From NCBI GenBank assembly GCA_947623455.1, contig OX392534.1, positions 38,693,426 through 38,757,425 on the forward strand: a stretch of 64,000 bases of DNA, in the 5' to 3' direction. Positions within the stretch are counted from its first letter, which is position 1; each line of letters opens with the position of its first letter. This document shows positions 42,201-59,601 of the stretch, piece by piece. Origin of the DNA: Mimachlamys varia. Lineage: Eukaryota; Mollusca; Bivalvia; Pectinida; Pectinidae. Below the pieces are notes generated by a model. The model was not told where the DNA came from and did no database searches. It worked only from the letters and a program-made list of their open reading frames with translations. A program made the position numbers and the translations under genes.

Positions 42201-45200
42201 GTGTTTTTTATGTCTAACAAGTTCGGCTGTATGCGGTCTTCGTCAGACCTGATTGAGTGACTGCTTTTAGTACAACCGTCAACCTAGTACACCGACTCTA
42301 CTGTATCGATGTCTAGACGCACAGAGGCTCCCAAATTGTTTATTTTATAGAAAACGTGGAAGGTTAAGTCTTATGTAAGATTTAATTGAATAATTTATGA
42401 ATGATATTGCCGTGAAAACATCGTTTATTTCAATTATCTGTATATTAGGCCTGTGCCTTCGCTTGTGTCAACAGATCTTCACTGTAACTCGTGCGAGGTG
42501 TCAATCAATGTCAAGCCTAATTAACGAGGCATTGTGTTATGTTTTCAAAGTTTCCTATTCAAAGGTGTTTGTTTAATTAACCTTAATGGCGACTTACCTG
42601 GTTATTGCTATAATACTGGCTTGAGGGTTTTTTTTTTTCAAGATTTTTTTTTTTCATTTTTGGACCCCAAAACGTACCTGCGCACTATACGCGAGTGCGC
42701 ACTATATGCGAGAAATTACGGTATATATATATAAATGTTCAAAGACTAAACATTTGTATAAATTTTTTTTATTCGGCAGACACTAGTCCAAACATCTGTC
42801 TAAACTTTCCCCTTACACCAACATTGATAACAAGGTGCCATAGTTAGTAAAAGTCCACATTCAAATCCACATGCTGTGTGATATTATGTATGAAGTAATG
42901 AATTGAAAAATTTAATGATGTACTAGTTTCTGCTCTAGCTGTTGGCATTCTTGTATGGATAATAGTTTATTATTCTGTTATCAGGAATGTATTGAAGTTG
43001 ATAAACAAAGATTTTCTAAAAACAGTAACAGTGACCTTGACCTTTAATATTATACAGAAACCTTGAAACACAAACTTGTCCCAAAGCATTGCTGTTGTTC
43101 TTAAAGCCTTGTTGTAGGAGTTTGAAATAAAGAAAAATTATAGCCAATCACCACAAAAAGTTACATGGTAAAAAATGATGACTCCTGGCTTTGTGGTTCT
43201 TAAGAAGAAAGTGACTCATGTAGACTGGCCGACATCACGCCCACACCACTGCATAAACCTGCAAACAATCCTTATCAAATCAACTTGTAGACAAATTGTA
43301 TAATTGCTGACTAGTACGAAGTATAAAGGGACATGTACATTTGGCTTTGAGTACATTTGAACACAATATTTATGAATCATGATTAAGTTCAGTGTAATTA
43401 GTAAGTGGAGAACAGCACAGTGCTAAAGAATATGAGTAAAACAACAGAAAACCATGGGTTTTACCTGGCCTGTTGGTTTGGTGGTATGTGGTGGCAGCGG
43501 TGGGTGGACAATTTCAGGACTGGTACGATTGATGCCCATCACTAAGAGATCTGCATCACTGAGGAGCTTCTTATTATTGAGGTAGTCAAACTGTGAGGAT
43601 CAAAAATATCGTCAATGAGCGAGGAAAACTGTAACAAGGCCATCTACTCCTAGATAGTACAGTAACAGCAACTTATTGAATTGTCTTTCAAGCAAATCCA
43701 GCTGTAATAAACTGGATTTAACTGAAACCCTTATCCCTGCACATCCTCAGAGTTTAAAGCCCATTCATTAAACAGTGGACAAGGTACCCCAATTCCTGCA
43801 CATTGTTTGAGTTTGAAACCCATTGATTAAACAGTGGATGAGGTACCCCCATTCTCTCAATATCCAGAGTTTGAAGCCCATTCATTAAATAGTGCATGAA
43901 GTACCCCAATTTCCTGCATATCCTCAGAGTTTAAAGCACATTCATTAAACAGTGGATGAGGTACCCCCATTCTCTCAATATCCAGAGTTTGAAGCCCATT
44001 CATTAAATAGTGGATGAAGTACCCCAATTTCCTGCATATCCTCAGAGTTTGAAGCCCATTCATTAAATAGTGGATGAAGTACCCCAATTTCCTGCATATC
44101 CTCAGAGTTTAAAGCACATTCATTAAACAGTGGATGAGGTACCCCCATTCTCTCAATATCCAGAGTTTGAAGCCCATTCATTAAATAGTGGATGAAGTAC
44201 CCCAATTTCCTGCATATCCTCAGAGTTTAAAGCACATTCATTAAACAGTGGATGAGGTACCCCAATTTCCTGCATATCCTCAGAGTTTGAAGCCCATTCA
44301 TGAAATAGTGGATGAAGTACCCCAATTTCCTGCATATCCTCAGAGTTTAAAGCACATTCATTAAACAGTGGATGAGGTACCCCAATTTCCTGCATATCCG
44401 CAGAGTTTAAAGCCCATTCATTTAACAGTGGATGAGATACCCCCATTCCCTCAATATCCAGAGTTTGAAGCCCATTCATTAAACAGTGGATGAGGTACCC
44501 CCATTCCCTCAATATCCAGAGTTTGAAGCCCATTCATTAAACAGTGGATGAGGTACCCCAATTTCCTGCACATCCTCAGAGTTTGAGTTTAAAGCCCATT
44601 CATTTAACAGTGGATGAGGTATGCCGCTGAGAACCTGGGGTCAAGGTTGAAAGTGAAATAATGTCACAGTGAAGAAAAAAGTAATTTGGAGCAATTTACT
44701 TCTTAATCACGTCATGTGGTCAAGACCAAAGGTGAAATCAAGGTCAATATGACCTGTCTATAGATGCATGATCATATAAAACTGTCGAATGTATCTAACG
44801 GCTGAGTCAAATTCAATCAATTTCAAAATCGAAAAAGAAAAAGATTCTTCTTAGTCATTTAATGGTAGATCTCCTATTCTTTAGGTCTTTCATTGGTAGA
44901 CTTAGGAAAAATTTAACATTTAACAAGGTAATTTGGTAACTGTTAGTAACCAATATGAAGCAAACGGACAAACCTCAAGCTGTTCATCAAAGGTATGGTT
45001 CTTACTGGCCCTCTCTGCTACAGCTACCAGGTTCTGTATAAAACAATGAATATGTAAAAGACAAGAAACACTAGCCTTGATTGTAATGAAAAACATGAAT
45101 TGTGCTTAATTCCATAAAGGTTACCACTATAATGTTATAATTAATAAACAGGTTTCCATATAGCCACTTACTTTTGATAAAGTCACTGGTCATATAAATG

Positions 45201-48200
45201 TCTTGATGTTGTATGTCAGGTACATGGTGTATAAGTACCGTCTATGTCCAGTGCTAGTGCGGGAATGACTGATTACGGACAATCACGGGTACACGTACGA
45301 ACACTCGATCACGTGACAAGACATTTACATTACAATACAAAACAGGTGAAAAATACTCAGTTTGACACGTGGACTGCACAAACAGGTTTGACAAGTACAT
45401 ACACAGTATTAAAATAGATGACATTAAACAAACGTTGTAATGAAATAATTAAAAATACAAACACAATTAATAATATCAATATTACCACTTTGGTAATATA
45501 TATAAGTTTGAATTATTTTAATCAAACTTTAACTATACCAAATATATAAAATACATGAAAATTCCATTCTACCACATTGGTGTAAGAAGAAGCTCACTAT
45601 TTTGATGGCAAGTCAAAAGCAATTAATTTGAGATTCAGAACAAAAATCAGAACAGAAACTTACAAGTGTATCCATGTACTTATCTTCGAACTTTCAGATT
45701 CCGAAATAAGTTTTACAGTTTAGTTATAATTATTTGTTATTGATTCAGCAGAAATTGTTTAACACAATAAATTCACTTTGACGCTGCCGTCACCACTGGA
45801 AAAGCTAAGTTTAGACGCCTTTCAATCTTTTTAACAACATCAGACACAAGTGCTTCATGAAGTGTTTTAACAGAAAACGTAGTAATAAAACCTTCACACT
45901 ATTTATAAAGGAAAAAAGTTGTAGCTATTTTAATCACCATTCATAAAACATTTTCAATTTGAACTTGAGCTTTTTATGGTAAAACCAATTTCGGAAAGAA
46001 ATACTTACGATTACTTAAGTATGCATTATTCTGCCTACACTAAAATTTACAGGGGAAAAATGAACGCTTTCAATGATTGAACTTTCGTTTCGTTGAAAAA
46101 AATGTGATGGGGCAATAATTATTCATCATGAAAAACTTGTTTTCAGTGAACACCTAGGAAAGTTCGGAAGGGATCTTACAGTGAACAAAATTGTTTCTCT
46201 TGTCTGGATTGATTCAATGCGACTGTCAAAAGTAAATACATTGCAGTAACCTTTAACTTATGCACCCCTGAAATTCATAACTATTCCATCTTTTGAATTG
46301 GAAGAGTTCAAATGAGTTTAACAGGAGACAGTTAATTAAAATACATGTTTATAATGTAGATTTCCTTATTAGGTCATTTTGCATGAGTGTATAAAACAAA
46401 CTTAATGTTCATTTAAAAACCTCTATGCCAAAGTGAGTGATAAACATTTGATTTCCCCTCAGCATCAAATTTGATTTCCACCTTTTCTTACCTGCAGCCA
46501 TGACCTTGCTATGTAACAATCTCTTTAACTTAAATATTTTTTGAGACATCCCCTCAGTATCAGATTTGGTTTTCACCAATCATGTATTTGGAAGACCTTG
46601 ACCTTGCTTTGTAACAATCTCTTAACTTAAAAGTGTTTCGAAACATCCCCTCAGGATCAGATATCATATTTCCCGCGGTTGACACCGGAATTAGCGGGAA
46701 ATTACTTTCTCTGCCAGTCTGACCGCCAGGTGGCGGTACTTGAGGTACCTGTGGCACGTGCAGTGCCAGGTCAGTTCAGGCAACGCACTCGGTGGTCTAG
46801 GTCGAGCAGAAAATTTGTAACACAACCAGGTAAAGGAAATGACAGAAACATCGTTAGCTGTGGTTTTGGAAAGCATTAAGGAGCAGAAGAATGAGCTGAC
46901 GAAGTATTTAGACACAAAATTAGAGACCTTAAGGCAGGAAATAAGTACAGAAAACCAGGAGGCTGGGTTCAAAAAAGTGAAAACTGAGCCGGAGTTCACG
47001 TGGAAACGGCAGGGTAACAAAGAACAATTTAAGTTTAACAATGGCGTTCAGGAAGATGTAACGCAAGCGCTATGGGCCTTACGTATGGGTAAAACTGACT
47101 ATTGCTGCGAGTTATTGGAGAAGAGCGTTTCCGATATCAAGGGGAGAAATAAGCTCGTAAAATTGGCAGACTCTTCAGAATGTGGCTGGGAGACGGTCAA
47201 ATGTTACATTACCAATCCGCTCGCCAGTGATTCGGATGACGAGAAGAAAATTAACAAGGCAGAAGCAAAAGCTAACAAGAAAAGGAAAGACAAAGTAGCC
47301 AAGAAGGACACTCGTGCTAAGTATGGCAGGGTATACGGCGGTCCCGGTCGTTCTGGTGGCGGCGGCGCTGTGCTTAGTCAGCTACCTAGCACTTCCGGTG
47401 GGAACATTGCAGGGCAGACATTTTTTCGTGGCCAACGAAGAGCATGGGCAGGTGGAGCATGTTTCGGATGTGGGGATTTCAGCCACTACAGGAAGGACTG
47501 TCCACTCAACACCGGAGGCAAACAACAAGGAGCGCCAGGCGGGTCTAAATGAGTCGGCGAAGGAAGGGTCCAAAGACTTGTTGTTAGATAAGTATCCACC
47601 CAATGAGATAGATTGTGCTAAATATAACACATTTGTCGAGAAAAGTAATGTTTTGTTAGAGCTTGTTAATGGGGATATAACAGATGATTATTTCGAGTAC
47701 GAACAAGGGGAGAAAGACATTTATGTAAGAGGGAGATTAAAAAATAGCGCAAACTTTTGGAGATCTATAGGAGCCAGTGTTTTTGTTATGGACGTCATTG
47801 AAAATGGCTATAAAATTCCGTTTTATTATTTACCAGAAAGTGTAGCCTTGTCAAACAACAAATCTTCCTTGTCTAATGGCGAGTTCGTTTTAGAAGCTAT
47901 AGAGCAGTTGGTTAGAAAAGGGTTGGTTCAGAGATGTGCCGAAGCTCCGTATATTGTTAATCCATTGACAGTTTCAGTCCAATCAAATGGCAAAAAGAGG
48001 TTGATACTAGATCTTAGGGCAGTGAATGCGCATCTGTGGAAGGAAAAAGTTAAATTTGAAGATATTAGAGTGGCTTTGTTATATTTGCATACTGGTTCAT
48101 GGATGTACAAGTTTGACATACACTCAGCTTATCATCATATAGACATTTTCCCAGCTCATACACGGTTTTTAGGGTTTTCATGGATCATAGATGGCAAGAC

Positions 48201-51200
48201 GTGTTATTTTAAGTTTTTAGTATTACCTTTCGGGATAAGGACAGCCCCATATGTTTTCACCAAGTTGACAAGGGCATTGATAGGTAAATGGAGAGGAGAT
48301 GGCTATCAGATCTTAATGTATTTGGATGATGGTTTGGGATGTCATGATGATAGAGACAAATGTAGGAAACAGGCTTTGACAGTGAAGAGTGATTTGATCT
48401 TATCAGGATTTGTACCAAAGGTAGGGAAATCATGCTGGGAGCCGATTCAATATATGACATTCCTAGGGGTAGATGTAGATTCCCTTAATGGGATACTTCA
48501 TATCCCACCATATCGGGTAGATAATGCCAAGAATTGTGTAGGTGACATTTTAAAATTGGTCAATTCAGGGAAAAGCATACATGTAAAGAAATTGGCAAAG
48601 TTTGTGGGGCAGATTATGTCCATGTCTGTGGTGCTTGGTAATATTACTCAGCTCATGACTAAATGTCTTTCTGTAGATATTGCAAGGACTGAGCATTGGA
48701 ATGAAAGTTTGAAACTTGGGGTAGAATCTGTGTTTCAGTTGGAGTTTTGGTCCAAACATTTGGAGGGCTTAAACAAATGTAGACTTCAATACTATCCACA
48801 ATGTCACAGAGTTGTCTTTTCTGATGCTAGTGGGTCAGGCTATGGGGGATATTGTGTTGAATCTCCTTTCGGATTATCACAAGGGATGTGGAGTATGGAG
48901 GAATCGGTCAAAAGTTCAACATGGAGGGAACTCAAAGGTGTATATAATGTGTTGAGTTCACTGTTGGAGTGTTTGGCAGGTCAGAGAGTCAAATGGTTTT
49001 CAGATAATCAGGGCACTGTTTCAATAGTAGAAAAGGGCAGTATGAAAACTGATTTACAGGATGTTGCTCTAGATATTTATGATCTCTGCTGGAGGTTTCA
49101 GATAAAACTAGAGATGGCGTGGATTCCACGGACAAAAAATGAAAAGGCAGATTATTTGAGTAAAATAGTAGATCCAGATGATTGGGGCATATCTGTGAAA
49201 GTGTTCAAACAACTTGAGAGGTTGTGGGGGCCATATGATGTGGATTGGTTTGCCAGCGATTATAATACCAAGGTTAGTGTATTTTTCTCCAGGTATTGGA
49301 ATCCTGGTGCAGTAGGTATGGATGCTTTTACCAGTGATTGGTCAGGTAGGAATGGTTGGTTTGTACCACCTGTACATTTGATCAGTAGAGTTCTGTTAAA
49401 TATGGGACTATGTAAGGCATTCGGTACAGTGATCATTCCAGTATGGATGACAGGGCGGTTTTGGCCAATTTTGTGCCCTGATGGGAAGGCTTTCATTAAA
49501 GCTGTGAAAGATGCCAGATATCTTCCAGAAAGTGACAATGTTTGTGTATCAGGAAGAGGCAGCAACTCAGTGTTCAGTGAAAAGAAGCTTTCATTTAGGA
49601 TGCTGGCATTGTATATAGATTATCGTTAAAAATGTATGTATATTGTAAAAGTTGTAAGCTCCAGTTAAACACAGAAGTGTTGTAGACACATAGTTTTGTA
49701 AAAGGAATGTAGAGGTTGATATTTAGCATTGTTTCAATGTGTCCTACATACCCTAGATGGAGAGGTCATGCAGAGATTTAAGTTTTGTTTGTATGGATAG
49801 CTGTGAGGTGTGGAGTTGGGCCGTCTGGATATAGTAGTGGATACTAGTGGAGTACAGGTCATAGTACCTGGATATTGACTAGCTGTGAGCTAGGGAGGTC
49901 ATAGTACCTGGCTAGTAGTGGATACTAGTGGAGTACAGGTCATAGTACCTGGATATTGACTAGCTGTGAGCTAGGGAGGTCATAGTACCTGGCTAGTAGT
50001 GGATACTAGTGGAGTACAGGTCATAGCACCTGGATATTGACTAGCTGCGAGCTAGGGAGGTCATAGTACCTGGCTAGTAGTGGATACTAGTGGAGTACAG
50101 GTCATGGTACCTGGATATTGATTAGCGATGAATTAGTTAACCTGATTTGGCAGGTATATGTATATGATTAGTTATGCATGTATAATAATATATATTGATA
50201 TAAATATGGTAAAAAGCAATATCATTCATGTAAATAGATGAATAAGATTGCTGGTTTAGCTTATACTAGGAATATATATATATAGTCTCGCACATTTAGT
50301 ACATTAATACTAATTGTCGCTTTTGTTTACACGTTTGTTTTTGCAGGCTAATGGGACAGAGATCAATGGACTTTCTGAAAATTTAAAAGAACTTGCAAAA
50401 ACTATTCCAGATCTTTTGTGTAATTCCAAAGCAGATAGCACGGTCAAGAAATATTATTATAATTTCAAGAAATGGGTTTCTTGGGCAAATAGTAATGATG
50501 TCTGTGTTTTTCCTGCAAAACCAATACATCTTTGTTTATACTGTAGTTTTTTGGTTCAGACAGGTGCTAGTAAAGGTGTTTTAAATGATGTATTTTATGG
50601 AATAAGATGGGCTCATAATATTGTAGGGCTACCATCTCCTACAGATTCTTTGTTGGTGAAGAATTTATTTGAAGGTGCAAAGAGAAAACTTTGTAAACCA
50701 GTTATCAAAAAAGATGTGATGACTGTGGAAATTTTAGAAAATATGTATGACAAGCATTCTGATGGGAAAGATTTGGTTGCACAGAGAATAATTACAATCT
50801 CTTTATTGTGTTATGCAGGGTTCTTAAGGAGTGCAGAGGTATTGAATTTGATGAGATGCGATATCCGGTTGTCCTCCACCCACACAGAGCTTTTCATAGA
50901 GCAGTCCAAGACAGATATATACCGAGATGGCTCCTGGGTTTTGATTGCTAGGACTGATAACAAGTTGTGCCCAGTGAGGAATCTAAAAATATATCTGCAG
51001 TTGGCAGAGATCAGTGACAGCAGCAGTGAGTATATCTTTCGGAATGTGACAAAGTGCAAGGATCGATATATTCTAAGGAAGTGTAATAAGCCGATGATAT
51101 ATTCAAGACTGCGAGAATCTTTTTTGCATCATTTTTCCAGTGTTGTTCCAGACATTTCGAAATATGGTCTTCATAGCTTCCGAGCAGGAGGGGCTACTGC

Positions 51201-52430
51201 TGCCGCCAATGGAGGAGTAGTTGATAGACTTTTCAAGCGTCATGGAAGATGGCGGTCAGAGACGGCAAAAGACGGTTATGTTAAAGACAGTGTGACAGAA
51301 AGATTATCTGTTTCAAAAAATCTCGGTTTATAAGTGTAAAGGTTAGGGTTTAAAAGTGGGTGGAGGACTGCAAGTTTAGCATTCGTTTATATATATATAT
51401 TTTATAGAGACAATTTCAAATAGTGGGAGTTTAGACAATGTTGAGGTATCTCGATCCCGTTCTTTAGGTTCATCGTTAGTGCGTTGTGGACAATCAATGA
51501 TTGTTTGTTATTGCCACCGGGGGGTTGGGTGTGGCAGAGAAATCATATTTCCCGCGGTTGACACCGGAATTAGCGGGAAATTACTTTCTCTGCCAGTCTG
51601 ACCGCCAGGTGGCGGTACTTGAGGTACCTGTGGCACGTGCAGTGCCAGGTCAGTTCAGGCAACGCACTCGGTGGTCTAGGTCGAGCAGAAAATTTGTTTT
51701 TGTAATTATAAGAATCATTTAGCGAACTATGTAACTATGATACGAAAGTTAGTACATAGATATATGCAGTATAGATTTATGTATGGTAATGGTGTTATGT
51801 ATATTGAATTGTAATGTTGATAACTAATGGTTATTAAATGGCATCGTTAGTGCGTTGTGGACAATCAATGATTGTTTGTTATTGCCACCGGGGGGTTGGG
51901 TGTGGCAGAGAATTGGTTTTCACCATTCATGTACTTGGACGACCTTGACCTTTCTTTGTAACAATCTGTTAACTTAAAAGTTTTTTGAGAAATCCCTTTA
52001 GTATCAGGTTTGGTTTCCACCATTGCTTACCACCACAGCTCTAACCTTGCTATGTTACAGTTTCTCAACTTTAATGGGTTTCTTTTTAGACATCCCCTCA
52101 GTATGAGGTTTGGTTTCCACCATTGCTTACCTTCACAGGCCTAACCTTGCTATGTTACAGTCTCTCAACTTAAATGTTTTTTGAGACATCCCCTCAGTAT
52201 GAGGTTTGGTTTCCACCATTGCTTACCTTCACAGGCCTAACCTTGCTATGTTACATTCTCTCAACTTAAATGTTTTTTGAGACATCCCCTCAGTATCAGG
52301 TTTGGTTTTCACCATTGCTTACCTTCACAGCCCTGACCTTGCTATTCAACAGTTTCTTGATGCTGTTGGCGGTTTTCCTGATTATTATAGATGGAGACCA
52401 CTCATCCTTACTTAAAAGTCTTTTATAATC
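181..52430 (-). CDS. CACNA2D: Calcium channel alpha-2/delta subunit gene (CACNA2D3/4-like), 31 exons, both ends missing
   Basis: Auxiliary extracellular, membrane-anchored subunit of voltage-gated calcium channels; the family raises channel surface density. Exons, 5' to 3' on the minus strand: 52323-52430, 44974-45033, 43465-43590, 40990-41052, 37354-37516, 36153-36284, 35126-35192, 34363-34513, 32998-33162, 32377-32499, 31786-31864, 29236-29285, 28078-28188, 26404-26460, 25094-25174, 24164-24247, 21728-21820, 21303-21380, 20306-20367, 19657-19724, 18812-18854, 18210-18310, 17288-17381, 12979-13020, 7972-8052, 7004-7116, 4332-4531, 3899-3961, 3375-3448, 2587-2668, 181-233. All junction phases agree. 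Domain order is VWA_N, VWA with MIDAS D-T-S-G-S, Cache-like region, then the cysteine-containing region. The SGSMKGLR form after the MIDAS resembles alpha-2/delta-3/4 rather than -1/-2. The family is about 1100 residues; 955 are seen, so the signal-peptide end and roughly 120 C-terminal residues are outside or unrecognised. A retrotransposon sits antisense in the intron 52322-45034. Confidence 0.95.
347..668 (+). repeat. Dispersed repeat, AAGAGGCC/GGCCAGGTGAGC family, copy 1
   Basis: Begins ACAAGAGGCCGAATGGGACC and ends GCCCTTTGGGCCAGGTGAGC. Contains the family's internal GTGAC...GTCAA and AGACG motifs. No open frame; a non-autonomous repeat of unknown class. Confidence 0.75.
903..2098 (+). 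repeat. 57-bp tandem array, about 21 copies
   Basis: Unit contains GGTATAGAATGCAGG, TCTCTATCTATCTTAGAAC and CATCTCGTTTGGCAGC. Copies are highly similar; 57 is a multiple of three so frames stay open locally, but indels break them and there is no coding signal. Lies in the intron between alpha-2/delta exons 30 and 31. Confidence 0.97.
2360..2554. repeat. 195-bp palindromic fold-back element
   Basis: Left arm starts GGCCCCGGTTTCATCCAACG and the right arm ends CGTTGATGAAACCAGGGCC, with further pairing through CCTTAACTTAA, AAATCT and GGAAAGCATTACAGAATTTA. Nearly the whole length is self-complementary. It resembles a hairpin MITE and lies 32 bp from a splice donor. Confidence 0.9.
2587..2668 (-). 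CDS. CACNA2D: alpha-2/delta exon 30
   Basis: 82 nt: completes Glu, then [20 protein letters not shown] and SAEHLIN, phase 0 at the end. Matches xIxLYDYQAMC. Acceptor TTGCCAAG, donor AAC/GTAAGT. A 195-bp palindrome begins 32 bp downstream of the donor. Confidence 0.95.
3375..3448 (-). CDS. CACNA2D: alpha-2/delta exon 29
   Basis: 24 codons plus 2 nt: [20 protein letters not shown] then RLFQ. Matches the GxFFGEIxGxxMxxLxxxxxF motif. Acceptor GTACCAG, donor AGA/GTAAGT. Confidence 0.96.
3662..3898 (+). repeat. 59-bp tandem array carrying splice-donor copies
   Basis: Four units with CCCTAATTAAACACTTACTT; the ACTTAC donor cores are at 3716, 3775, 3834 and 3893, the last being the functional donor of the exon at 3899-3961. 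Confidence 0.92.
3899..3961 (-). CDS. CACNA2D: alpha-2/delta exon 28
   Basis: 21 codons, phase 0-0: [20 protein letters not shown] then E. Matches xVNCYLIDNNGFILxSxxx. Acceptor TTCTTGCAG, donor GAA/GTAAGT. Three exact copies of the donor core lie at 59-nt steps downstream in the intron. Confidence 0.96.
4040..4100. repeat. Short GC-rich palindrome
   Basis: GGCCCCGTCTC ... GAGGGACGGGGCCCC around 4059-4098 can form a hairpin; function unknown. Confidence 0.5.
4332..4531 (-). CDS. CACNA2D: alpha-2/delta exon 27 (cysteine-containing region)
   Basis: 200 nt, the longest exon found: [17 protein letters not shown] ... [20 protein letters not shown] ... [14 protein letters not shown]. Matches the NVVTxSxSIxL...VxAVGIQMxxxFFQxKF...C...C..SC block. 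Acceptor GGCCACAG, donor AAT/GTAAGT. Confidence 0.96.
4937..5067 (+). repeat. 27-bp tandem repeat, about 5 copies
   Basis: Unit resembles GGTACTGTGTTCAACCCAAT followed by ATAATTA. Copies have diverged. Confidence 0.8.
5142..5265 (+). repeat. AAGAGGCCC family, 5' fragment (copy 2)
   Basis: Starts AACAAGAGGCCCCATGGGTC followed by TTGCTCACCTGCC, the family's left end. The expected right end is not adjacent; a separate TIR element begins at 5266. Confidence 0.65.
5266..6274. mobile_element. TIR element with TGTCCCCCGCTTC ends and internal 340-bp duplication
   Basis: Terminal 13 bp TGTCCCCCGCTTC are matched by GAAGCGGGGGACA at 6262-6274. A 340-bp segment starting at 5521 is repeated at 5861 with few changes. 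Ends in (GGAC)n-type simple repeat. Reading frames over it are non-coding by appearance. Confidence 0.75.
6275..6915 (+). repeat. Dispersed repeat rich in GTGACCTTGA...GGTCAAGGTCA
   Basis: Diverged units with 'cccagcatgctac', 'ccaatatc' and 'gtgaccttga'. The same units occur at 15.4-16.2 kb and 60.9-62.2 kb. Stops just before exon 7004-7116. Confidence 0.65.
7004..7116 (-). CDS. CACNA2D: alpha-2/delta exon 26
   Basis: 113 nt: completes Leu, [20 protein letters not shown] then [12 protein letters not shown] plus 1 nt. Matches the xFPLWYRRAAExxPGxFVYSIPF segment. Acceptor CTCATTAG, donor AAG/GTCAGT. Confidence 0.93.
7223..7679 (+). repeat. AAGAGGCCC family, copy 3
   Basis: Starts AGAAGGCCCAATGGGCCTGC with CTCTCACG, ends AACTTGCCCTTTGGGCAGG then TTAGTTAAAAA. 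Internal GTGACCTTTAAAGTAGGTCA typical of the family. Confidence 0.75.
7972..8052 (-). CDS. CACNA2D: alpha-2/delta exon 25
   Basis: 81 nt: completes Lys, then [20 protein letters not shown] and DLFPTT plus 2 nt. Strong match to the family's GVxVAFLGTRTGLxRxxxF. Acceptor TTCAACAG, donor GCT/GTAAGT. Confidence 0.95.
8755..8930 (-). mobile_element. SINE-like element with tRNA-Glu-like head
   Basis: On the minus strand, a tRNA-like head with A box TAGTGGATAGCGCACT, a CTTTCACC anticodon-type stretch and B box GGTTTGATTCC, followed by a body whose plus-strand form is GGGAGGAAACCGGAGAAAAC. A second diverged copy lies at 35385-35530. Confidence 0.75.
9210..10278 (+). repeat. AAGAGGCCC family copy 4 with six internal ~160-bp units
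   Basis: Left end CAAGAGGCCCAGAGGGCCTG; right end AAGCTCACCTCGG, then TCCTTTGGACCAAGTGAGC. Between them six tandem units of about 160 bp with GGCCCCGCCCCTCAGCCCCC, CTAGGGGGTCAGTCCCACC and AATCAGTGGTTATGG. No open frame. Confidence 0.85.
10279..11789. other. Intron sequence without recognisable features
   Basis: AT-rich, with no splice-flanked open frame, tandem array or terminal repeat that I can see. Confidence 0.5.
11790..12134. mobile_element. 345-bp TIR element (MITE-like)
   Basis: Left end ATCCTTGATATCCAGGGGCG then ACACTCACC; right end GGTGAGTGTAACCCCCCTGG then ATATCGAGGAT, inverted with about two mismatches and a small gap over roughly 29 bp. No coding capacity. Confidence 0.8.
12135..12978. 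other. Intron sequence, no feature seen
   Basis: AT-rich sequence immediately 3' (in transcript) of the 42-nt exon; nothing recognised. Confidence 0.5.
12979..13020 (-). CDS. CACNA2D: alpha-2/delta exon 24 (42 nt)
   Basis: Completes Ser, then [13 protein letters not shown] plus 2 nt of Lys. Acceptor CTTTCAG, donor TAA/GTACGT. Weak conservation by itself, but its phases (2 nt in, 2 nt out) are exactly those needed between the neighbouring exons. Confidence 0.78.
   Translation of the reverse strand, partial: LLCIQFLCPAFRK
13021..15351. other. Intron sequence with one old repeat relative
   Basis: Mostly unique AT-rich DNA. A stretch around 13900-14040 (CCACTGGAATAAGACAAGG ... CCAATGTCGGT) is a diverged relative of 20940-21010. 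Confidence 0.5.
15352..16200 (+). repeat. AAGAGGCCC family copy 5, right end lost
   Basis: Left end CAACAAGAGGCCCATGGGCC then TTAACAGTCATCTAAC; several GTGACCTTGAAA...GGTCA units follow. The matching right terminus is absent. Confidence 0.7.
17288..17381 (-). CDS. CACNA2D: alpha-2/delta exon 23
   Basis: 94 nt: completes Cys, then [20 protein letters not shown] and [10 protein letters not shown] plus 2 nt. Matches the CDKELIxxVLFDAxxTxxxxxYWT segment; the Cys made across the junction is the conserved one. Acceptor CTTTCCAG, donor AAG/GTAATT. Confidence 0.92.
17441..17946. mobile_element. 506-bp TIR element, TGTCTCGCCTT ends
   Basis: TGTCTCGCCTT at 17441 and AAGGCGAGACA at 17936-17946 are perfect 11-bp inverted repeats. 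Non-coding interior. Lies 59 bp upstream (transcript sense) of exon 17288-17381. Confidence 0.7.
18210..18310 (-). CDS. CACNA2D: alpha-2/delta exon 22
   Basis: 101 nt. Completes Trp, then [20 protein letters not shown] and [13 protein letters not shown] plus 1 nt. The W-x-x-C and later helix match the family's EWCxDL...LxxxxxxxK block. Acceptor CTTTCAG. Only the T/GTAAGT donor gives the phase required by the next exon. Confidence 0.85.
18812..18854 (-). CDS. CACNA2D: alpha-2/delta exon 21 (small)
   Basis: 43 nt, phases 1 in and 2 out: completes Asn, then [13 protein letters not shown] and 2 nt of Trp. Corresponds to the family's xYxFIAPxEWC approach. Acceptor GTTGTAG, donor ATG/GTAACG. Confidence 0.82.
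19085..19225 (-). mobile_element. tRNA-derived SINE, minus copy
   Basis: Minus-strand A box TTTAGCTCAGTCGGTAGAGC and B box GGTTCGAGTCCCAGC, followed by a tail CACTTTTCCTTGTCCTATTA. The same head and tail occur at 59852-59960 on the plus strand, so this is an interspersed family rather than a functional tRNA. Confidence 0.8.
19657..19724 (-). CDS. CACNA2D: alpha-2/delta exon 20
   Basis: Completes Lys, then [20 protein letters not shown] and GP plus 1 nt. Continues the Cache-like strand (SLGVALxxxxG). Acceptor GATTTCAG, donor CAA/GTAAGT. Confidence 0.87.
19925..20010 (+). mobile_element. tRNA-like SINE head
   Basis: TTGGCTCAAGTTGGTAGAAC (A-box-like) and GACCGGGTTCGATTACTGG (B-box-like) in the right spacing. 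No good cloverleaf at the T arm. Confidence 0.55.
20306..20367 (-). CDS. CACNA2D: alpha-2/delta exon 19
   Basis: 20 codons plus 2 nt: [20 protein letters not shown], matching the KRVxxxxxxYYYxxIxGTPFSLG block. Acceptor TTTTTTCAG, donor TAA/GTAAGT. Confidence 0.88.
20520..20830 (+). repeat. Diverged relative of the 37.6-kb TIR element
   Basis: GTATTTGTAAACATGCATCC, TCAAGAGTTTCTTTGTAGTT and TTATTTTTGCATGGTTATCA match the interior of 37613-38003 with substitutions; terminal repeats not preserved. Confidence 0.65.
21150..21250 (+). repeat. Repeat 3' end with C/G hairpin
   Basis: CAGACAGGGTGTTTCCAGTA then a C-run and TCCATTGCGGGGGTATAAT: same terminal design as 31620-31685. Confidence 0.6.
21303..21380 (-). 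CDS. CACNA2D: alpha-2/delta exon 18
   Basis: 26 codons, phase 0-0: [20 protein letters not shown] then VPYDGR. Occupies the position of the family's NRKTGKFSMxVKxxVDxGKR segment. Acceptor CTTTCAG, donor AGA/GTAAGT. Confidence 0.85.
21728..21820 (-). CDS. CACNA2D: alpha-2/delta exon 17
   Basis: 31 codons, phase 0-0. [20 protein letters not shown] aligns with PNYSSVDLSEVExxDxxDxLR. Acceptor TTTTGTAG, donor ATG/GTAAAC. Confidence 0.92.
22041..23027 (+). repeat. 60-bp tandem array, left block
   Basis: Unit: GATAGATTCTATTAATCTTA, CCCTCGGGTTGAGAATTCTC, AGTCTACATCACACAGGGGT. About 15 full units plus shortened ones. 60 bp keeps one frame open for 210 codons, but the protein is only the repeat and there is no start, splice or domain evidence for coding. 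Confidence 0.97.
23028..23908. mobile_element. 881-bp TIR element inserted inside the 60-bp array
   Basis: Ends CAGGGTTCAC and GTGAACCCTG, flanked on both sides by CTCAGG (23022-23027 and 23909-23914), a sequence present once in unbroken units. Interior is AT-rich with no open frame. Termini recall hAT-type ends, but the duplication is 6 rather than 8 bp, so the class is open. Confidence 0.85.
23909..24138 (+). repeat. 60-bp tandem array, right block
   Basis: Four diverged units of the same array resume after the insertion and end about 25 bp from the donor of exon 24164-24247. Confidence 0.92.
24164..24247 (-). CDS. CACNA2D: alpha-2/delta exon 16 (Cache-like region)
   Basis: 28 codons, phase 0-0. 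[20 protein letters not shown] is the conserved GxxGYAFxxxxNGYxLxHPxLRP motif. Acceptor TTGTTGTAG, donor AAG/GTATGA. The 60-bp array begins about 25 bp downstream of the donor in the transcript. Confidence 0.96.
24395..24767 (+). repeat. AAGAGGCCC family copy 6 (most complete short copy)
   Basis: Left end CAAGAGGCCCAATGGGCCTG then CATCACCCACCTGG; right end ATAAGCTCACTTGGCCCTTT then GGGCCAGGTGAGCTAAAAA. 373 bp. Confidence 0.8.
25094..25174 (-). CDS. CACNA2D: alpha-2/delta exon 15 (Cache-like region)
   Basis: 27 codons, phase 0-0. [20 protein letters not shown] matches the [13 protein letters not shown] signature that opens the Cache-like region. Acceptor TTACCAG, donor AAG/GTAGGC. Confidence 0.96.
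26404..26460 (-). CDS. CACNA2D: alpha-2/delta exon 14
   Basis: 19 codons, phase 0-0: [19 protein letters not shown], matching the family's xTxAMPVFxxxxE. Acceptor TTTTCAG, donor GCT/GTAAGT. Confidence 0.92.
26659..27358. mobile_element. 700-bp piggyBac-like non-autonomous element (TTAA ends)
   Basis: Left TTAACTCATTCGGCGCCAAA and right TTTGGCGCCGAAAGAGTTAA are inverted repeats with 19 of 20 matching. TTAA on both outer edges fits a piggyBac-type target. Contains an internal pair of related segments (GGTGTAGGGACATGCTACTT near 26770 and its relative near 27132). No transposase frame. Confidence 0.75.
27369..27458. repeat. Short fold-back repeat, CACCCCTG family
   Basis: AACTCATTCACCCCTGGAAC ... 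TTTGAATTGGAAGGGTTC ... TTGAGTTAA. Relatives at 46262-46320 and 55715-55797. Confidence 0.6.
27553..27615 (+). repeat. 32-bp tandem duplication
   Basis: GTCGACACAGTACAATAGCG then ATGAACAA occurs twice in a row. Confidence 0.8.
27673..28023. repeat. Fold-back region: TIR pair plus 109-bp hairpin
   Basis: TATATTAGATATG (27673) is inverted at 27881-27893. Next to it, 27915-28023 is a hairpin: GGTCAATATGTGGTGTTATA ... GTATAACACGATACTGACC, with GTAGAATC/GATTCTAC pairing. It ends 54 bp from the donor of exon 28078-28188. Confidence 0.75.
28078..28188 (-). CDS. CACNA2D: alpha-2/delta exon 13 (two possible donors)
   Basis: Begins [12 protein letters not shown], the conserved EYLxVLSRPxVI, then [12 protein letters not shown]. 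Two in-phase donors are possible: GAT/GTAGGG (exon start 28078, 37 codons) or GAG/GTGTCT (exon start 28099, 30 codons). The longer form better matches the alpha-2/delta-3 spacing to the next exon. Acceptor ACTTACAG. Confidence 0.88.
28540..29055 (+). repeat. 51-57-bp tandem array, about 10 copies
   Basis: Unit GGTTAATTCCAAGTCAGCAG, GGCCTAGGAAAACTAG, TTTTAAGTTTTCATT. Two higher-order pairs alternate GCAGGGCCTAGG with GCGGGGTCATAGG. Confidence 0.95.
29236..29285 (-). CDS. CACNA2D: alpha-2/delta exon 12
   Basis: 50 nt: completes Gly, then [16 protein letters not shown], matching GxxxxISTLADVQENV. The 40-bp tandem array starts about 15 bp upstream of its acceptor (GGCAG), leaving a very short unique polypyrimidine region. 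Donor CAG/GTAAGT. Confidence 0.93.
29300..30040 (+). repeat. 40-bp tandem array, about 18 copies
   Basis: Unit CACAAAATATCAGAGGCATC, GCATGTTATCTAAAAACCGT. Starts right next to the acceptor of exon 29236-29285. Not a CRISPR: no unique spacers. Confidence 0.96.
30880..31685. mobile_element. Repeat element with C/G-run ends and 158-bp internal units
   Basis: Left end AATACCCCCCCGCTACC, right end GCGGGGGGGTATAATTA, roughly inverted. Inside are three 158-bp tandem units (31085-31585) with TACCATGGCAACCAAAATTT and GGTCCCCAACAATACTGCC, followed by (GACGGACA)n. The frames over it are repeat-derived. Confidence 0.75.
31786..31864 (-). CDS. CACNA2D: alpha-2/delta exon 11 (VWA end)
   Basis: 26 codons plus 1 nt: [20 protein letters not shown] then MACANK. 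Matches the family's VRxFTYLIGRE...KWMACANKG. Acceptor ATTTAAAAG, donor AAAG/GTAATT. Confidence 0.95.
31945..32180 (+). repeat. Short-period tandem repeat (about 21-24 bp)
   Basis: About ten variants of GATCACCTGATAACAGGAAG then TT. Confidence 0.85.
32377..32499 (-). CDS. CACNA2D: alpha-2/delta exon 10 (VWA, ITDG strand)
   Basis: 41 codons, phase 0-0. [20 protein letters not shown] is the VWA strand that supplies the distal MIDAS residues (T-D-G). Acceptor GTTTAG, donor CCT/GTGAGT. Confidence 0.95.
32998..33162 (-). CDS. CACNA2D: alpha-2/delta exon 9 (VWA)
   Basis: 55 codons, phase 0-0. [20 protein letters not shown] aligns with the family's YNxxxxYVxPCxNGTLVQA; ends [14 protein letters not shown], the conserved helix of the VWA fold. 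Acceptor TTCTTCAG, donor AGG/GTGAGT. Confidence 0.95.
33650..34150 (+). repeat. Diverged GTGACCTT-type repeat
   Basis: Three imperfect units containing CTTTTGGTC/GTTGACTCCTTG and TCAGTGAAAAGCTAC; similar in style to the AAGAGGCCC family interiors but with no termini. Confidence 0.5.
34363..34513 (-). CDS. CACNA2D: alpha-2/delta exon 8, VWA domain with MIDAS
   Basis: Completes Trp, then [16 protein letters not shown] and [12 protein letters not shown]. The MIDAS D-x-S-x-S is complete (D256, S258, S260 in window numbering), so metal-dependent binding to the channel is expected to be intact. Ends phase 0 after DYFNIIS. Acceptor GATTACAG, donor TCG/GTAAGT. Confidence 0.97.
35126..35192 (-). CDS. 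CACNA2D: alpha-2/delta exon 7 (link into VWA)
   Basis: 67 nt: completes Gly, then [21 protein letters not shown] and 2 nt of Trp. Corresponds to the family's PGIxW...FDCRxRxWYI. The run CRVRN lacks the triple-Arg motif that alpha-2/delta-1/-2 use for gabapentin binding. Acceptor TTACAG, donor TTG/GTAAGT. Confidence 0.93.
35385..35530 (-). mobile_element. SINE-like element, second copy
   Basis: Shares TATTGTGGGAGGAAACC, GGAGAAAACCCTCGTGGT and CCGCCTTGGTGAAAGGCAAG with 8755-8930, with a short insertion; head partly degraded. Confidence 0.7.
36153..36284 (-). CDS. CACNA2D: alpha-2/delta exon 6, GC-type donor
   Basis: Starts with 2 nt completing an Asn codon, carries [10 protein letters not shown] and [16 protein letters not shown], the hallmark WQYFGSxxGFFRxxP block before the VWA domain, and ends after 1 nt of Gly. 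Acceptor CTTTCAG. The donor is CCAG/GCAAGT, a canonical GC-AG intron signal; no GT donor fits the phase here. Confidence 0.93.
37354..37516 (-). CDS. CACNA2D: alpha-2/delta exon 5 (VWA_N)
   Basis: 54 codons plus 1 nt. Ends [10 protein letters not shown], the strongly conserved VxVPTxxYxK motif. Acceptor TTTTACAG, donor AAA/GTAGGT. Contains several N-x-S/T sequons (for example NTST), as expected for an extracellular glycoprotein. Confidence 0.92.
37613..38003. mobile_element. 391-bp TIR element, AAAGGCCCAATAT ends
   Basis: AAAGGCCCAATATACG at 37613 and CGCATATTGGGCCTTT at 37988-38003 pair in 15 of 16 positions. Interior matches 20520-20830. Confidence 0.8.
38560..38890 (-). pseudogene. Degraded Tc1/mariner-like transposase fragment
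   Basis: On the minus strand two frames carry transposase-like pieces: [12 protein letters not shown] (the first catalytic Asp region, as in xDESRF) and, after a frameshift and missing central part, [20 protein letters not shown], like the QQDNARPHxA block around the second Asp. No intact reading frame and no inverted repeats found nearby. Family assignment rests on these two motifs. Confidence 0.6.
38891..40989. other. Intron sequence, nothing recognised
   Basis: AT-rich. Short frames here lack splice-flanked coding character. Confidence 0.5.
40990..41052 (-). CDS. CACNA2D: alpha-2/delta exon 4, acidic possible cassette exon
   Basis: 21 codons, phase 0-0, rich in Asp/Glu/Asn/Ser ([15 protein letters not shown]). 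Flanked by acceptor TTATTTAG and donor GAG/GTATCT. It lies in a loop that varies between family members, and it could be skipped without changing frame. No specific conserved residues, so support is the splice sites, open frame and position. Confidence 0.7.
41531..42723. mobile_element. 1.2-kb TIR element, TACCxxAATTTCTCGC ends
   Basis: TACCACAATTTCTCGCGTAT then AGTGCACAC at the left is inverted at the right as GTGCGCACTATATGCGAGAA then ATTACGGTA (about 25 of 29 match). Flanks begin with T/A, compatible with a TA target. The right end holds a second GCGCACTATACGCGAG half-copy. No transposase frame. Confidence 0.78.
43465..43590 (-). CDS. CACNA2D: alpha-2/delta exon 3 (VWA_N, proline-rich tail)
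   Basis: 42 codons, phase 0-0. Starts [10 protein letters not shown], equivalent to the YEYFNA motif of the family, and ends in a proline/threonine-rich piece ([14 protein letters not shown]) that is variable in the family. Acceptor CTCACAG, donor CAG/GTAAAA. Confidence 0.88.
43735..44635 (+). repeat. 59-60-bp tandem array, about 15 copies
   Basis: Unit CCTCAGAGTTTAAAGCCCAT, TCATTAAACAGTGGATGAGG, TACCCCAATTTCCTGCATAT; two unit types alternate (CTCAATATCCAG versus CTGCATATCCTCAG). Reverse-strand open frames over it are repeat only. Confidence 0.95.
44974..45033 (-). CDS. CACNA2D: alpha-2/delta exon 2 (VWA_N)
   Basis: 20 codons, phase 0-0. Reads [12 protein letters not shown] then HTFDEQLE, a clear match to the family's NLVxxAExAxxxHxFDxxLQ stretch. 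Acceptor TATACAG; donor GAG/GTTTGT is a weak but GT-type site. Confidence 0.92.
45034..46439. other. Intron sequence with one short fold-back repeat
   Basis: AT-rich; CACCCCTG-family copy at about 46262-46320. Nothing else recognised. Confidence 0.5.
46440..46662 (+). repeat. 96-bp array, left part (split by the retrotransposon)
   Basis: Degenerate units containing CATCCCCTCAGTATCAG, GGTTTTCACC and GACCTTGC. The same units continue at 51913, showing that one array was interrupted by insertion. At 46487-46491 a unit keeps a minus-strand GTAAG donor core. Confidence 0.88.
46663..46818 (+). repeat. Split direct repeat A1 of the retrotransposon
   Basis: 156 bp, same as 51542-51697. Contains nested palindromes: TTTCCCGC paired with GCGGGAAA near its start, ACCGCC-AGGT-GGCGGT, AGGTACCT, and GGCAC-GTGCA-GTGCC. 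These could fold at RNA or DNA level; no ATG occurs in it, so it acts as a leader. Confidence 0.95.
46839..47552 (+). CDS. Retrotransposon ORF1, Gag-like with CCHC zinc knuckle
   Basis: 237 residues from ATG. Coiled-coil-like charged N-terminus (about residues 10-40), a region containing WETV and [17 protein letters not shown] followed by a Lys-rich stretch (about 119-163), a Gly/Ser-rich linker, and a zinc knuckle [14 protein letters not shown] (C208, C211, H216, C221). Likely nucleic-acid-binding structural protein. A consensus-like 5' splice site CAG/GTAAAG lies 9 bp upstream of the ATG. Its 3' third overlaps ORF2 in another frame. Confidence 0.9.
   Translation: MTETSLAVVLESIKEQKNELTKYLDTKLETLRQEISTENQEAGFKKVKTEPEFTWKRQGNKEQFKFNNGVQEDVTQALWALRMGKTDYCCELLEKSVSDIKGRNKLVKLADSSECGWETVKCYITNPLASDSDDEKKINKAEAKANKKRKDKVAKKDTRAKYGRVYGGPGRSGGGGAVLSQLPSTSGGNIAGQTFFRGQRRAWAGGACFGCGDFSHYRKDCPLNTGGKQQGAPGGSK
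47323..49629 (+). CDS. Retrotransposon ORF2, reverse transcriptase and RNase H
   Basis: Open from 47314; the first ATG in frame is 47323 (giving 768 residues). Counting residues from codon 47314: RT motifs LDLRAVN (232-238), FDIHSAYHH (267-275, Asp268), LPFGIRTAP (304-312) and YLDD (336-339); RNase H acidic residues D504, E539, D564 and D613. A C-terminal DAFTSDWSG ... [10 protein letters not shown] segment is typical of DIRS/Ngaro polymerases. It overlaps ORF1 by about 230 nt in the +1 frame, so frameshifting, reinitiation or splicing is needed for expression. No internal stops. Confidence 0.95.
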   Translation: MAGYTAVPVVLVAAALCLVSYLALPVGTLQGRHFFVANEEHGQVEHVSDVGISATTGRTVHSTPEANNKERQAGLNESAKEGSKDLLLDKYPPNEIDCAKYNTFVEKSNVLLELVNGDITDDYFEYEQGEKDIYVRGRLKNSANFWRSIGASVFVMDVIENGYKIPFYYLPESVALSNNKSSLSNGEFVLEAIEQLVRKGLVQRCAEAPYIVNPLTVSVQSNGKKRLILDLRAVNAHLWKEKVKFEDIRVALLYLHTGSWMYKFDIHSAYHHIDIFPAHTRFLGFSWIIDGKTCYFKFLVLPFGIRTAPYVFTKLTRALIGKWRGDGYQILMYLDDGLGCHDDRDKCRKQALTVKSDLILSGFVPKVGKSCWEPIQYMTFLGVDVDSLNGILHIPPYRVDNAKNCVGDILKLVNSGKSIHVKKLAKFVGQIMSMSVVLGNITQLMTKCLSVDIARTEHWNESLKLGVESVFQLEFWSKHLEGLNKCRLQYYPQCHRVVFSDASGSGYGGYCVESPFGLSQGMWSMEESVKSSTWRELKGVYNVLSSLLECLAGQRVKWFSDNQGTVSIVEKGSMKTDLQDVALDIYDLCWRFQIKLEMAWIPRTKNEKADYLSKIVDPDDWGISVKVFKQLERLWGPYDVDWFASDYNTKVSVFFSRYWNPGAVGMDAFTSDWSGRNGWFVPPVHLISRVLLNMGLCKAFGTVIIPVWMTGRFWPILCPDGKAFIKAVKDARYLPESDNVCVSGRGSNSVFSEKKLSFRMLALYIDYR
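49833..50130 (+). repeat. 81-bp minisatellite inside the retrotransposon
   Basis: About 3.6 copies of an 81-bp unit containing GATACTAGTGGAGTACAGG and CATAGTACCTGG, lying between the RT and recombinase ORFs. The core GATACTAGTGGAG recurs at 49840, 49921, 50002 and 50083. Copies are almost identical. Confidence 0.9.
50347..51333 (+). CDS. Retrotransposon ORF3, tyrosine recombinase
   Basis: Open frame from 50314, but without an early ATG: the first in-frame Met is at residue 136, after the SAM-like N-terminal domain has begun. A 3' splice-site sequence (TTTGTTTTTGCAG) ends at 50346, so 50347 is taken as the start of a coding exon. Catalytic set, numbered from 50314: R172 (GFLRSAEV), K199 (EQSKTD), H287 and R290 (LHSFRAGGA), H310 or W313 (RHGRWRSE) and Y322 (DGYVKD). 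It would insert the circular cDNA. Confidence 0.92.
   Translation, partial: ANGTEINGLSENLKELAKTIPDLLCNSKADSTVKKYYYNFKKWVSWANSNDVCVFPAKPIHLCLYCSFLVQTGASKGVLNDVFYGIRWAHNIVGLPSPTDSLLVKNLFEGAKRKLCKPVIKKDVMTVEILENMYDKHSDGKDLVAQRIITISLLCYAGFLRSAEVLNLMRCDIRLSSTHTELFIEQSKTDIYRDGSWVLIARTDNKLCPVRNLKIYLQLAEISDSSSEYIFRNVTKCKDRYILRKCNKPMIYSRLRESFLHHFSSVVPDISKYGLHSFRAGGATAAANGGVVDRLFKRHGRWRSETAKDGYVKDSVTERLSVSKNLGL
51471..51541 (+). repeat. Split direct repeat B1
   Basis: 71 bp, same as 51842-51912. Contains a 7-bp-arm palindrome ACAATCA-A-TGATTGT and a TGCCAC ... GTGGCA hairpin near the end. Directly abuts A2, so B1/A2 marks the junction expected in a circular intermediate. Confidence 0.95.
51542..51697 (+). 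repeat. Split direct repeat A2
   Basis: 156 bp with no difference from A1 that I can see. Followed by a 144-bp AT-rich segment (51698-51841) unique to the right end of the element. Confidence 0.95.
51842..51912 (+). repeat. Split direct repeat B2, right end of the retrotransposon
   Basis: Second copy of the 71-bp B repeat. The base after it (51913) resumes the host repeat unit in perfect register with the sequence left of A1. Confidence 0.95.
51913..52322 (+). repeat. 96-bp array, right part, copying an exon end and splice donor
   Basis: Units spaced 96-100 bp, each carrying CATTGCTTACC and, in most, CTTCACAG plus CCTTGCTAT: a diverged copy of the last 30 or so bases of the neighbouring exon with its donor. 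Donor cores are at 52222-52226, 52126-52130 and 52026-52030; the true donor is at 52318-52322. Confidence 0.88.
52323..52430 (-). CDS. CACNA2D: alpha-2/delta exon 1 of those found (VWA_N helix region)
   Basis: 36 codons, phase 0 at both ends. Begins [11 protein letters not shown] and ends [10 protein letters not shown], matching the family's helical stretch before the NLVxxAE segment. Acceptor is TTTTGCAG, donor AAG/GTAAGC. The last 30 or so bases plus the donor are copied several times in the 96-bp array just downstream in the transcript. Confidence 0.88.
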
Positions 52431-57855: not shown

Positions 57856-58250
57856 ATAGATAGGTGTTATATCCAGGTTGATAGGTGTTATATCCAGGTT
57901 GATAGGTGTTATATCCAGGCTGATAGGCATTATATCCAGGTTGATAGGTGTTATATCCAGGTTGATAGGTGTTATATCCAGGCTGATAGGCATTATATCC
58001 AGGTTGATAGGTGTTATATCCAGGTTGATAAGTGTTATATCCAGGTAGATAGGTGTTATACCCAGGTTGATAGGTGTTATATCCAGGTTGATAGGTGTAA
58101 TATCCAGGTTGATAGGCGTTATATCCAGGTTGATAGGTGTTATATCCAGGTTGATAGGTGTAATATCCAGGTTGATAGGTGTTATATCCAGGTTGATAGG
58201 TGTTATATCCAGGTTGATAGGTATATTATATCCAGGTTGATAGGTGTTAT
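57856..58250 (+). repeat. 21-bp tandem array, about 18 copies
   Basis: Unit TTGATAGGTGTTATATCCAG then G. Because 21 is a multiple of three, both strands stay open through the array (YIQVDRC on plus, NLDITPI on minus). Treated as a minisatellite. Confidence 0.95.
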
Positions 58251-59601
58251 ATGGCTTGTGACAGGAGTTATATCTTGTAACATGTAACATGGGCGTCAGT
58301 TTTTTAGCTGATAAGCAAAATGGAATGAAAATTCAACTGAAACAGCATTGATGAATTTCAACAACAGCTATAGTCATTAGTCATCACTTAGCATTAAAAA
58401 CTAAAAGACTGCGCTAAAGAAATGTAAATGACAATATTCTTTATGAACTCTTGGAGGAATACAACATGTTGATTGGTCTATTATCTGACATTTTTGATGT
58501 GCTTTTAATCGCAAAATAATTTTCTCCCTCTGAGAGTTGTTACGATATTCGTGCGTTCAGTCTAGCTTAAGTGCGGTCTAATTACTGAAGGCGATTGTCT
58601 GTAAGCGGTATTCATGTAGCAAAGTTCATTTAGCCTCACGTTGCGAAATACCCAGCAGAATTGCAAATTGCGTCATACCACGAGGTAACAAAAAATGAGT
58701 GACTTATGGAGAAAGTTTGAGTGATTAGCGGACGTCCAGAGCCAGAGCTATTGTTAGTGAGATACTGAAACACCTCATGCTAATGACGCCGGGCTTTTTG
58801 TACTGGGAATGTGCAATGTTCCAATAAATAGATTGCATTTTCTCACCAAAAAATATCTTCGACTATTTCCTATGGGAGATTTCCTATAAATAGAGGCTTA
58901 ATTCACATCAGAGCCTCACGCGAAGTCTGGCTTTTTTATCATACTCACATCGAGCCGTGCTCGTAAATCTTACGGGTACTGATCTATCCCTGGTGAGATA
59001 ACTGGTGGGACTGTTACATACATGTCTGAATTTAATGTCTGTGGTCTAAAACAGCCCAGTTATCAACAAAACCATACATATTTACCATGAAGATGTTTTA
59101 TTGGTGAACACTTTAAATACTGTATATTAAGTACACATTCACTGTAACCATTTTATCTGATGTTCTTATATGGTGAAGTTTGGTGTGTTATTTCGCGAAT
59201 TTTAATGCATTCGCGAGTTATGCGAAATTAAAACCCCTAACAATTATTACCAACCACACAGTCATTTTTAGATGTAGATCTATTCTTTTAAATCTTGTAC
59301 AGTGGACTCCACTTAATATCACCCCTGTTTAAATATCACATTCCTCTTTATATCATGTCACATTCCTCTTTATATCATGTTTTTCCCAAGCACCATTTTT
59401 CTCTCTATATTACCTTTGTAATCTTATTAATGGTTATTATTGGTTAATATATCATGTATTGTGAGGTGAATTCCTGTTAATATCATGGGTTTTTTTAACC
59501 TATCACATAAAATATCTAGAAAATGATATCATTTGATTTTAGATACAACTTGTACAAAATGTTGCATAGAAAGTAAAAAATAACCCTAAAAATATCATGT
59601 A

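Follow-up and report, generated by a model that had tools for sequence, protein, structure and literature searches.

Split direct repeats are shared by more than one group of tyrosine-recombinase (YR) retrotransposons, and published keys, available here in excerpt (PMC4157794, PMC3266345, PMC9210276), describe Ngaro elements without a methyltransferase (MT) domain and PAT elements with an MT domain in addition to the split repeats. By one such key (PMC9210276, in part), PAT of Panagrellus and SkowPAT of Saccoglossus combine a pol gene encoding reverse transcriptase (RT), RNase H and MT with a tyrosine recombinase and split direct repeats. One mollusc paper on PAT-like elements was found in open-licence PMC, and its available portion (PMC3266345) reports a single such family, found in Lottia gigantea, a limpet. 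The function of the MT in the sister DIRS1-like elements is described as unknown in the available text of PMC3266345 and PMC9210276. Here we describe an element on the + strand of a 64-kb stretch of scallop DNA (Mimachlamys varia, contig OX392534.1; the whole stretch is called the window, and all positions are given in its numbering). We consider it very likely to be a tyrosine-recombinase retrotransposon of the PAT-like type, intact and of recent insertion, a judgement that includes the RNA ends, spliced third open reading frame (ORF3) and non-methylating MT proposed below. The element is ordinary in kind and good in quality; its altered MT motif is the feature that deserves specialist attention.

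The element spans 5250 bp (46663..51912, + strand, as are all features below), with repeats A1 and B2 as its outer ends, and is arranged as A1–gag–pol–YR–B1–A2–spacer–B2. The 156-bp direct repeats A1 (46663..46818) and A2 (51542..51697) and the 71-bp repeats B1 (51471..51541, abutting A2) and B2 (51842..51912) show 0 mismatches in a base-by-base comparison, and a repeat search gives the same pairs; an exact repeat of 156 bp is far beyond chance. A first-pass annotation of this DNA had placed the two identical pairs at these positions and read the A1...B1-A2-B2 order as the split-repeat layout of Ngaro/PAT-like elements. The pairs, equal at every base, are borne out, and so is the split layout, in a complete tyrosine-recombinase retrotransposon of the DIRS order with intact frames. 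Its suggestion of a recent, possibly still active insertion also appears to us to be right. Zero differences in 227 bp correspond to a 95% upper bound on divergence of 1.3%, and thus, if substitution rates are assumed to lie between 1e-9 and 5e-9 per site per year, to an insertion at most 6.6 to 1.3 million years old.

The target is a host minisatellite (51948..52345; 96-bp unit according to Tandem Repeats Finder, TRF), units of which also lie to the left of the element at 46447-46660. The left flank ...GGATCAGAT and the right flank TTGGTTTTCACC... together form one unbroken unit of this ~97-bp minisatellite, and the adjacent unit at 46534 carries an identical CAGATTTGGTTTTCACC. Matching host positions on either side of the element are 5347 bp apart, equal to 5250 + 97, which preserves the register of the array. 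Flank continuity and this spacing together define the length of the element as 5250 bp, and indicate that target bases were neither duplicated nor deleted. Insertion without target duplication is expected of a tyrosine recombinase, unlike that of a long terminal repeat retrotransposon with a DDE integrase. Exact repeat identity can also arise through assembly collapse or gene conversion rather than youth, an explanation that seems highly improbable here: unique sequence lies between the members of the pairs, the joined flanks match an empty site, and the intact frames also indicate youth.

Within pol (ORF2, 47323..49629; 768 aa from its first ATG), matches to the Pfam models RVT_1 (5e-9) and RVT_3 (RNase H-like; 0.039, below its cut-off) precede an MT-like domain at 49096..49626, recognized through Pfam Dam matches in relatives, a fold model and the residual motif. 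The presence of an MT in pol alongside split repeats makes the element PAT-like by the published keys. It is PAT-like rather than Ngaro by structure, not by a tree with named references, and split direct repeats alone are insufficient to call an element Ngaro. The wording "Ngaro/PAT-like" in the first-pass annotation therefore holds in its PAT half, which fits better, and the title "Ngaro-type" does not, because pol carries an MT domain after RNase H. Ngaro elements such as Ngaro1_DR and Xenopus DIRS-53_XT resemble the element in their A1...B1-A2-B2 repeats and gag-pol-YR order. DIRS1-like elements resemble it in the MT domain, the tyrosine recombinase and the absence of target duplication; they differ in that their terminal repeats are inverted and that they contain an internal complementary region, whereas a search of the element for inverted repeats at a minimum length of 20 found only two internal pairs of 22-27 nt, 73-74% complementary. 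VIPER-like elements have a kinetoplastid distribution and no MT; here an MT is present and the named relatives, among the matches listed, come from animals or from records assigned to bacterial metagenome-assembled genomes (MAGs), most matches bearing no name. The presence of RT sets the element apart from Cryptons, which have a tyrosine recombinase without one. No protein named as a PAT element was among the matches listed (best 120 of 839 for pol; best 120 of 737 for YR), and the likeness to PAT elements is one of structure, not sequence placement. The element differs from them in a ~700-bp gap between pol and YR that holds an 81-bp minisatellite, and in an ORF3 without its own ATG.

The MT assignment was weighed at the level of profile, fold and alignment. 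The Pfam Dam model matches the full pol protein with E 7e-5 and score 23.0, and the MT domain alone with E 9e-6 and score 25.9, both below the curated cut-off of 28.1. Across the family, Dam is matched by 38/40 members (E up to 1, best 3e-8) and, in another set, by 19/24 (E up to 0.01). The predicted fold (predicted local distance difference test, pLDDT, 86; predicted template modelling score, pTM, 0.80) has PCIF1 and phage methyltransferases as its best structural matches. Several observations count against the assignment and the class drawn from it: the sub-threshold Dam score of the window protein; a sequence search of the MT segment against solved structures, which returned no methyltransferase (best E 0.18); the weakness of the tblastn matches to the phage genes used below for comparison (E 0.01 to 3, 19-21% identity); and the homoplasious loss of MT reported in the accessible part of PMC4157794, so that structure alone is no phylogeny. 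If the Dam-like stretch were a chance or degenerate match, the element would be a Ngaro. That reading draws on the same low scores, on the structural rather than tree-based separation of PAT from Ngaro, on the split direct repeats that excerpts of PMC9210276 and PMC4157794 ascribe to Ngaro too, and on Ngaro elements reported from bivalve genomes (PMC8905726 and PMC10294476, in part). We nevertheless regard it as quite unlikely, since Dam recurs throughout the relatives and the fold and phage alignment agree on an MT, while the MT-less YR locus L001 is just 24% identical and Ngaro-like by gene order alone, with no split repeats found.

Although in its fold the domain resembles both PCIF1/CAPAM, a cap methyltransferase, and the Dam-type methyltransferases of phages (PF05869), it departs from the phage enzymes at the catalytic motif. 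The Asn of the N/D-P-P-Y/F motif is catalytic in this enzyme class. The element does not have this motif of an active adenine methyltransferase, but VPPV in its place. Four phage methyltransferase genes, picked from the tblastn matches, were aligned with the MT domain for motif comparison; the columns of D28, D50, N57, W82, P91 and P92 are invariant in 10/10 rows, so that the D, N, W and PP positions are common to both, whereas NPPY occurs in 4/4 phage genes at the place of VPPV in the element. In an alignment of 121 pol sequences (the window and the best 120 of 839 protein matches), the position of the Asn is gapped in 7, and among the remaining 114 rows is occupied by V in 104, by C in 5, and by N, L, T, H and I in 1 each. 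The catalytic Asn is thus replaced in 113/114 sequences, and the sole sequence that has it, P0025 (NPPI), offers a natural comparison. By contrast with this substitution, other positions of the domain are conserved where a residue is present: D649 in 118/118 rows, N656 in 116/116, F651 in 117/118 and K658 in 111/116. The loss of the catalytic Asn together with fixed neighbouring positions suggests that what selection maintains is not adenine methylation but another role. On the strength of the fold model and alignments, the MT has a predicted Dam/PCIF1 fold, is without the catalytic NPPY, and would probably bind S-adenosylmethionine (SAM) or nucleic acid rather than methylate adenine. A replaced Asn beside conserved positions makes a specific and testable claim about this domain. 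Searches of open-licence PMC found, among the matches listed, no paper on a lost MT motif in these elements, and none linking PCIF1 to DIRS retrotransposons or DIRS1 retrotransposons to an adenine methyltransferase.

The tyrosine recombinase is encoded by ORF3 (50314..51333), an open frame of 339 codons, of which 328 follow the splice site discussed below. It belongs to the Cre family, matching Cre in sequence (E 3e-4) and in fold (Foldseek E 1.3e-10), and also matches phage integrases (PHROG E 7e-8). Catalytic residues R172, K199, H287, R290, H310, W313 and Y322 are present, and the fold model has a pLDDT of 87.7. The Pfam phage-integrase model did not match the window ORF3, yet matches 21/24 members of its alignment. 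All three frames are open with catalytic residues in place, as the first-pass annotation had it, with the qualification that ORF3 has no in-frame ATG before 50719.

The missing start raises the question of how the recombinase would be expressed. A putative 3′ splice site lies at 50327..50347 (intron end 50346, TTTGTTTTTGCAG|GCTAATGGG, with GCT directly after the site), supported by its strong score and by a signature in relatives. On scores taken from textbook base frequencies rather than from a trained scallop model, it is tied second best among the 441 AG sites of the element, and is one of 25 among the 3722 AG sites of the window that reach its score. Of 121 YR rows (the window and the best 120 of 737 matches), 69 have enough N-terminal sequence to be judged, and 41 of these, including the window, carry an F-L or F-Q signature at the place of the splice site. 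The other 28 comprise five gene models in which, on visual inspection, different sequence is joined on at this place or no more than one residue away (P0137, P0165, P0169, P0183 and P0191), two with D or N there, and 21, mostly distant, that are neither joined models nor near variants. The start of P0165 resembles the gag N-terminus. Taken together, the signature and the joined (automatic) gene models point to splicing, and ORF3 is probably translated from spliced RNA through the site at 50347. Donors scoring at least 3 that carry an ATG-started frame into ORF3 through this site number 24; the six best are 49346, 48421, 49273, 49808, 47398 and 47452, the top one (49346) having MLLPVIGQ as its upstream exon. 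Leader splicing from a donor at 46830 (CAG|GTAAAG) was set aside, as it leaves ORF3 without an in-frame ATG.

A less favourable reading is that this is a dead or damaged copy that merely looks intact, having lost the ORF3 start codon so that YR is untranslatable. The first in-frame ATG, at 50719, lies inside the recombinase after 135 codons without one, and several relatives have a possible alternative start, a Met two residues before the splice place (MFLQ or MFFQ), possibly the real start that is missing here. However, other relatives (P0121, P0131, P0135 and others) also lack this Met and keep F-L/F-Q, the five gene models join other sequence at the splice place, and the three frames and their catalytic residues are intact; we therefore think damage of this kind unlikely. 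The proposal of an intact, spliced ORF3 has further points to contend with: the 21 rows without the signature, the spread of candidate donors over 24 sites, and a stretch of the YR model next to the catalytic Tyr (residues 308-321) that is of low confidence. Without use of the site at 50347, this copy may be unable to make YR. In open-licence PMC, no paper on splicing in DIRS-type tyrosine-recombinase elements was found among the matches listed, and no relevant one on spliceosomal introns in DIRS1-like elements.

The repeats also hold candidate signals for the RNA ends. A putative internal promoter at 46771..46804 consists of an initiator (Inr) TCAGTT, with A+1 at 46773, and a downstream promoter element (DPE) GGTCG at +28 to +32. 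In strict form the combination is confined to A1 and A2 as far as the + strand of the window is concerned, with 3 occurrences on the − strand, and it appears in 30/5000 dinucleotide shuffles of 46663-46840. With transcription starting at 46773, the RNA would include 46 nt of A and omit 110 nt. A poly(A) signal, ATTAAA, is found at 51833..51838, 3 bp before B2; the 60 bp that precede B1 contain no such signal. The predicted RNA would lack the outer parts of A and B, which B1-A2 holds side by side, and in this respect fits the published annealing model, which according to the available part of PMC6681497 requires A1/A2 and B1/B2 to be nearly identical at insertion. In such a scheme, RNA polymerase II would start at the Inr/DPE within A1, omitting the first 110 bp of A, and the RNA would end just past ATTAAA at the start of B2, leaving out most of B. 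The internal B1-A2 block, in which the missing ends are joined, would then serve as template for restoring and circularizing the ends of the complementary DNA (cDNA), with B1-A2 as the expected circle junction. Recombinase, probably made from RNA spliced at 50347, would then act between the chromosome and the circle at its B-A junction and leave no duplication. The replication of split-repeat elements is presented as a model in the published text consulted. With its intact sequence, exact ends and apparent youth, this PAT-like element provides practical starting material for testing it.

A more speculative reading, which we hold only tentatively and consider rather doubtful as a whole, joins a conserved pseudo-methyltransferase of the Dam/PCIF1 clade to a recombinase made only from spliced RNA. 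Here selection would keep the fold and pocket positions with the catalytic-Asn substitution fixed, and the ligand of the domain, which would not methylate adenine, would be SAM or else the A-initiated, capped 5′ terminus of the element RNA, its role perhaps being RNA selection or the positioning of cDNA ends in circle formation. If true, a splice-only recombinase would keep the genome RNA apart from the recombinase mRNA.

The remaining coding features are consistent with an intact element. ORF1 (46839..47552; 237 aa from its ATG) encodes gag with a CCHC zinc knuckle. The pol frame is open from 47299, overlapping ORF1; its first ATG (context AGTATGG) gives an overlap with gag of 230 nt (47323-47552), and Pecten maximus gene model P0156 begins at the same Met. 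Pol may start at this ATG or follow a frame change. RT has the YLDD motif, with D343 and D344 kept in 121/121 pol rows; RNase H residues D509, E544 and D569 are likewise kept in 121/121, and D618 in 120/121. A Pfam scan found no hydrolase match in the three ORFs.

The closest annotated proteins, among the matches listed, are from P. maximus: P0241 (LOC117317821) is identical to gag at 226/237 positions (11 differences), and P0156 (LOC117315697) to the YR segment at 167/171 (4 differences), with 7 differences in 88 from the pol N-terminus. Both are annotated as host genes and belong to other copies of the family; they lie on different contigs and differ from the window copy, which indicates that the family has other copies in P. 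maximus. Protein identity by itself would point to P. maximus or a near relative as the host. In an RT tree of 29 rows the window joins P0001 (supports 99/93) and next the P. maximus sequence P0002 (100/99); pol match P0001 and YR match P0122 each lie on a contig of 4562 bases, presumably a single one. Searches by single protein or alignment found no related DNA in viral contigs, and none was found in plasmids; the search of genome contigs returned one distant locus, L001 (best segment 24% identical). L001:1-4228 (VBAU01000142.1, filed under a Bacteroidetes MAG) has frames resembling RT/RNase H and a tyrosine recombinase but gives no MT match; it has the appearance of a eukaryotic YR retrotransposon and is probably a binning contaminant. 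Three proteins from Candidatus Thiodiazotropha MAGs (P0013, P0036 and P0084), one of them named "DNA N-6-adenine-methyltransferase", match the element pol at 49-51% identity and are probably clam host DNA in symbiont MAGs.

Further copies of the element were not found in the window, blastn (E 1e-3) and tblastn (E 1e-2) matching only the element and its internal repeats, and the window gave no match to Rfam at gathering scores and none in a tRNA scan. The 81-bp minisatellite (49832..50126; 3.6 copies, 97% matches by TRF) sits between the pol stop and the ORF3 splice site, its copies 94-99% alike to the first; its RNA folding is not unusual (z -1.28; 24/200 shuffles equally stable). Long minisatellite arrays abound in the window as a whole (TRF gives 54 rows, a few arrays being represented more than once), with units of 21-158 bp at 903-2097, 9281-10202, 22024-23013, 29294-30044, 43736-44621, 57859-58252 and 60918-62219.
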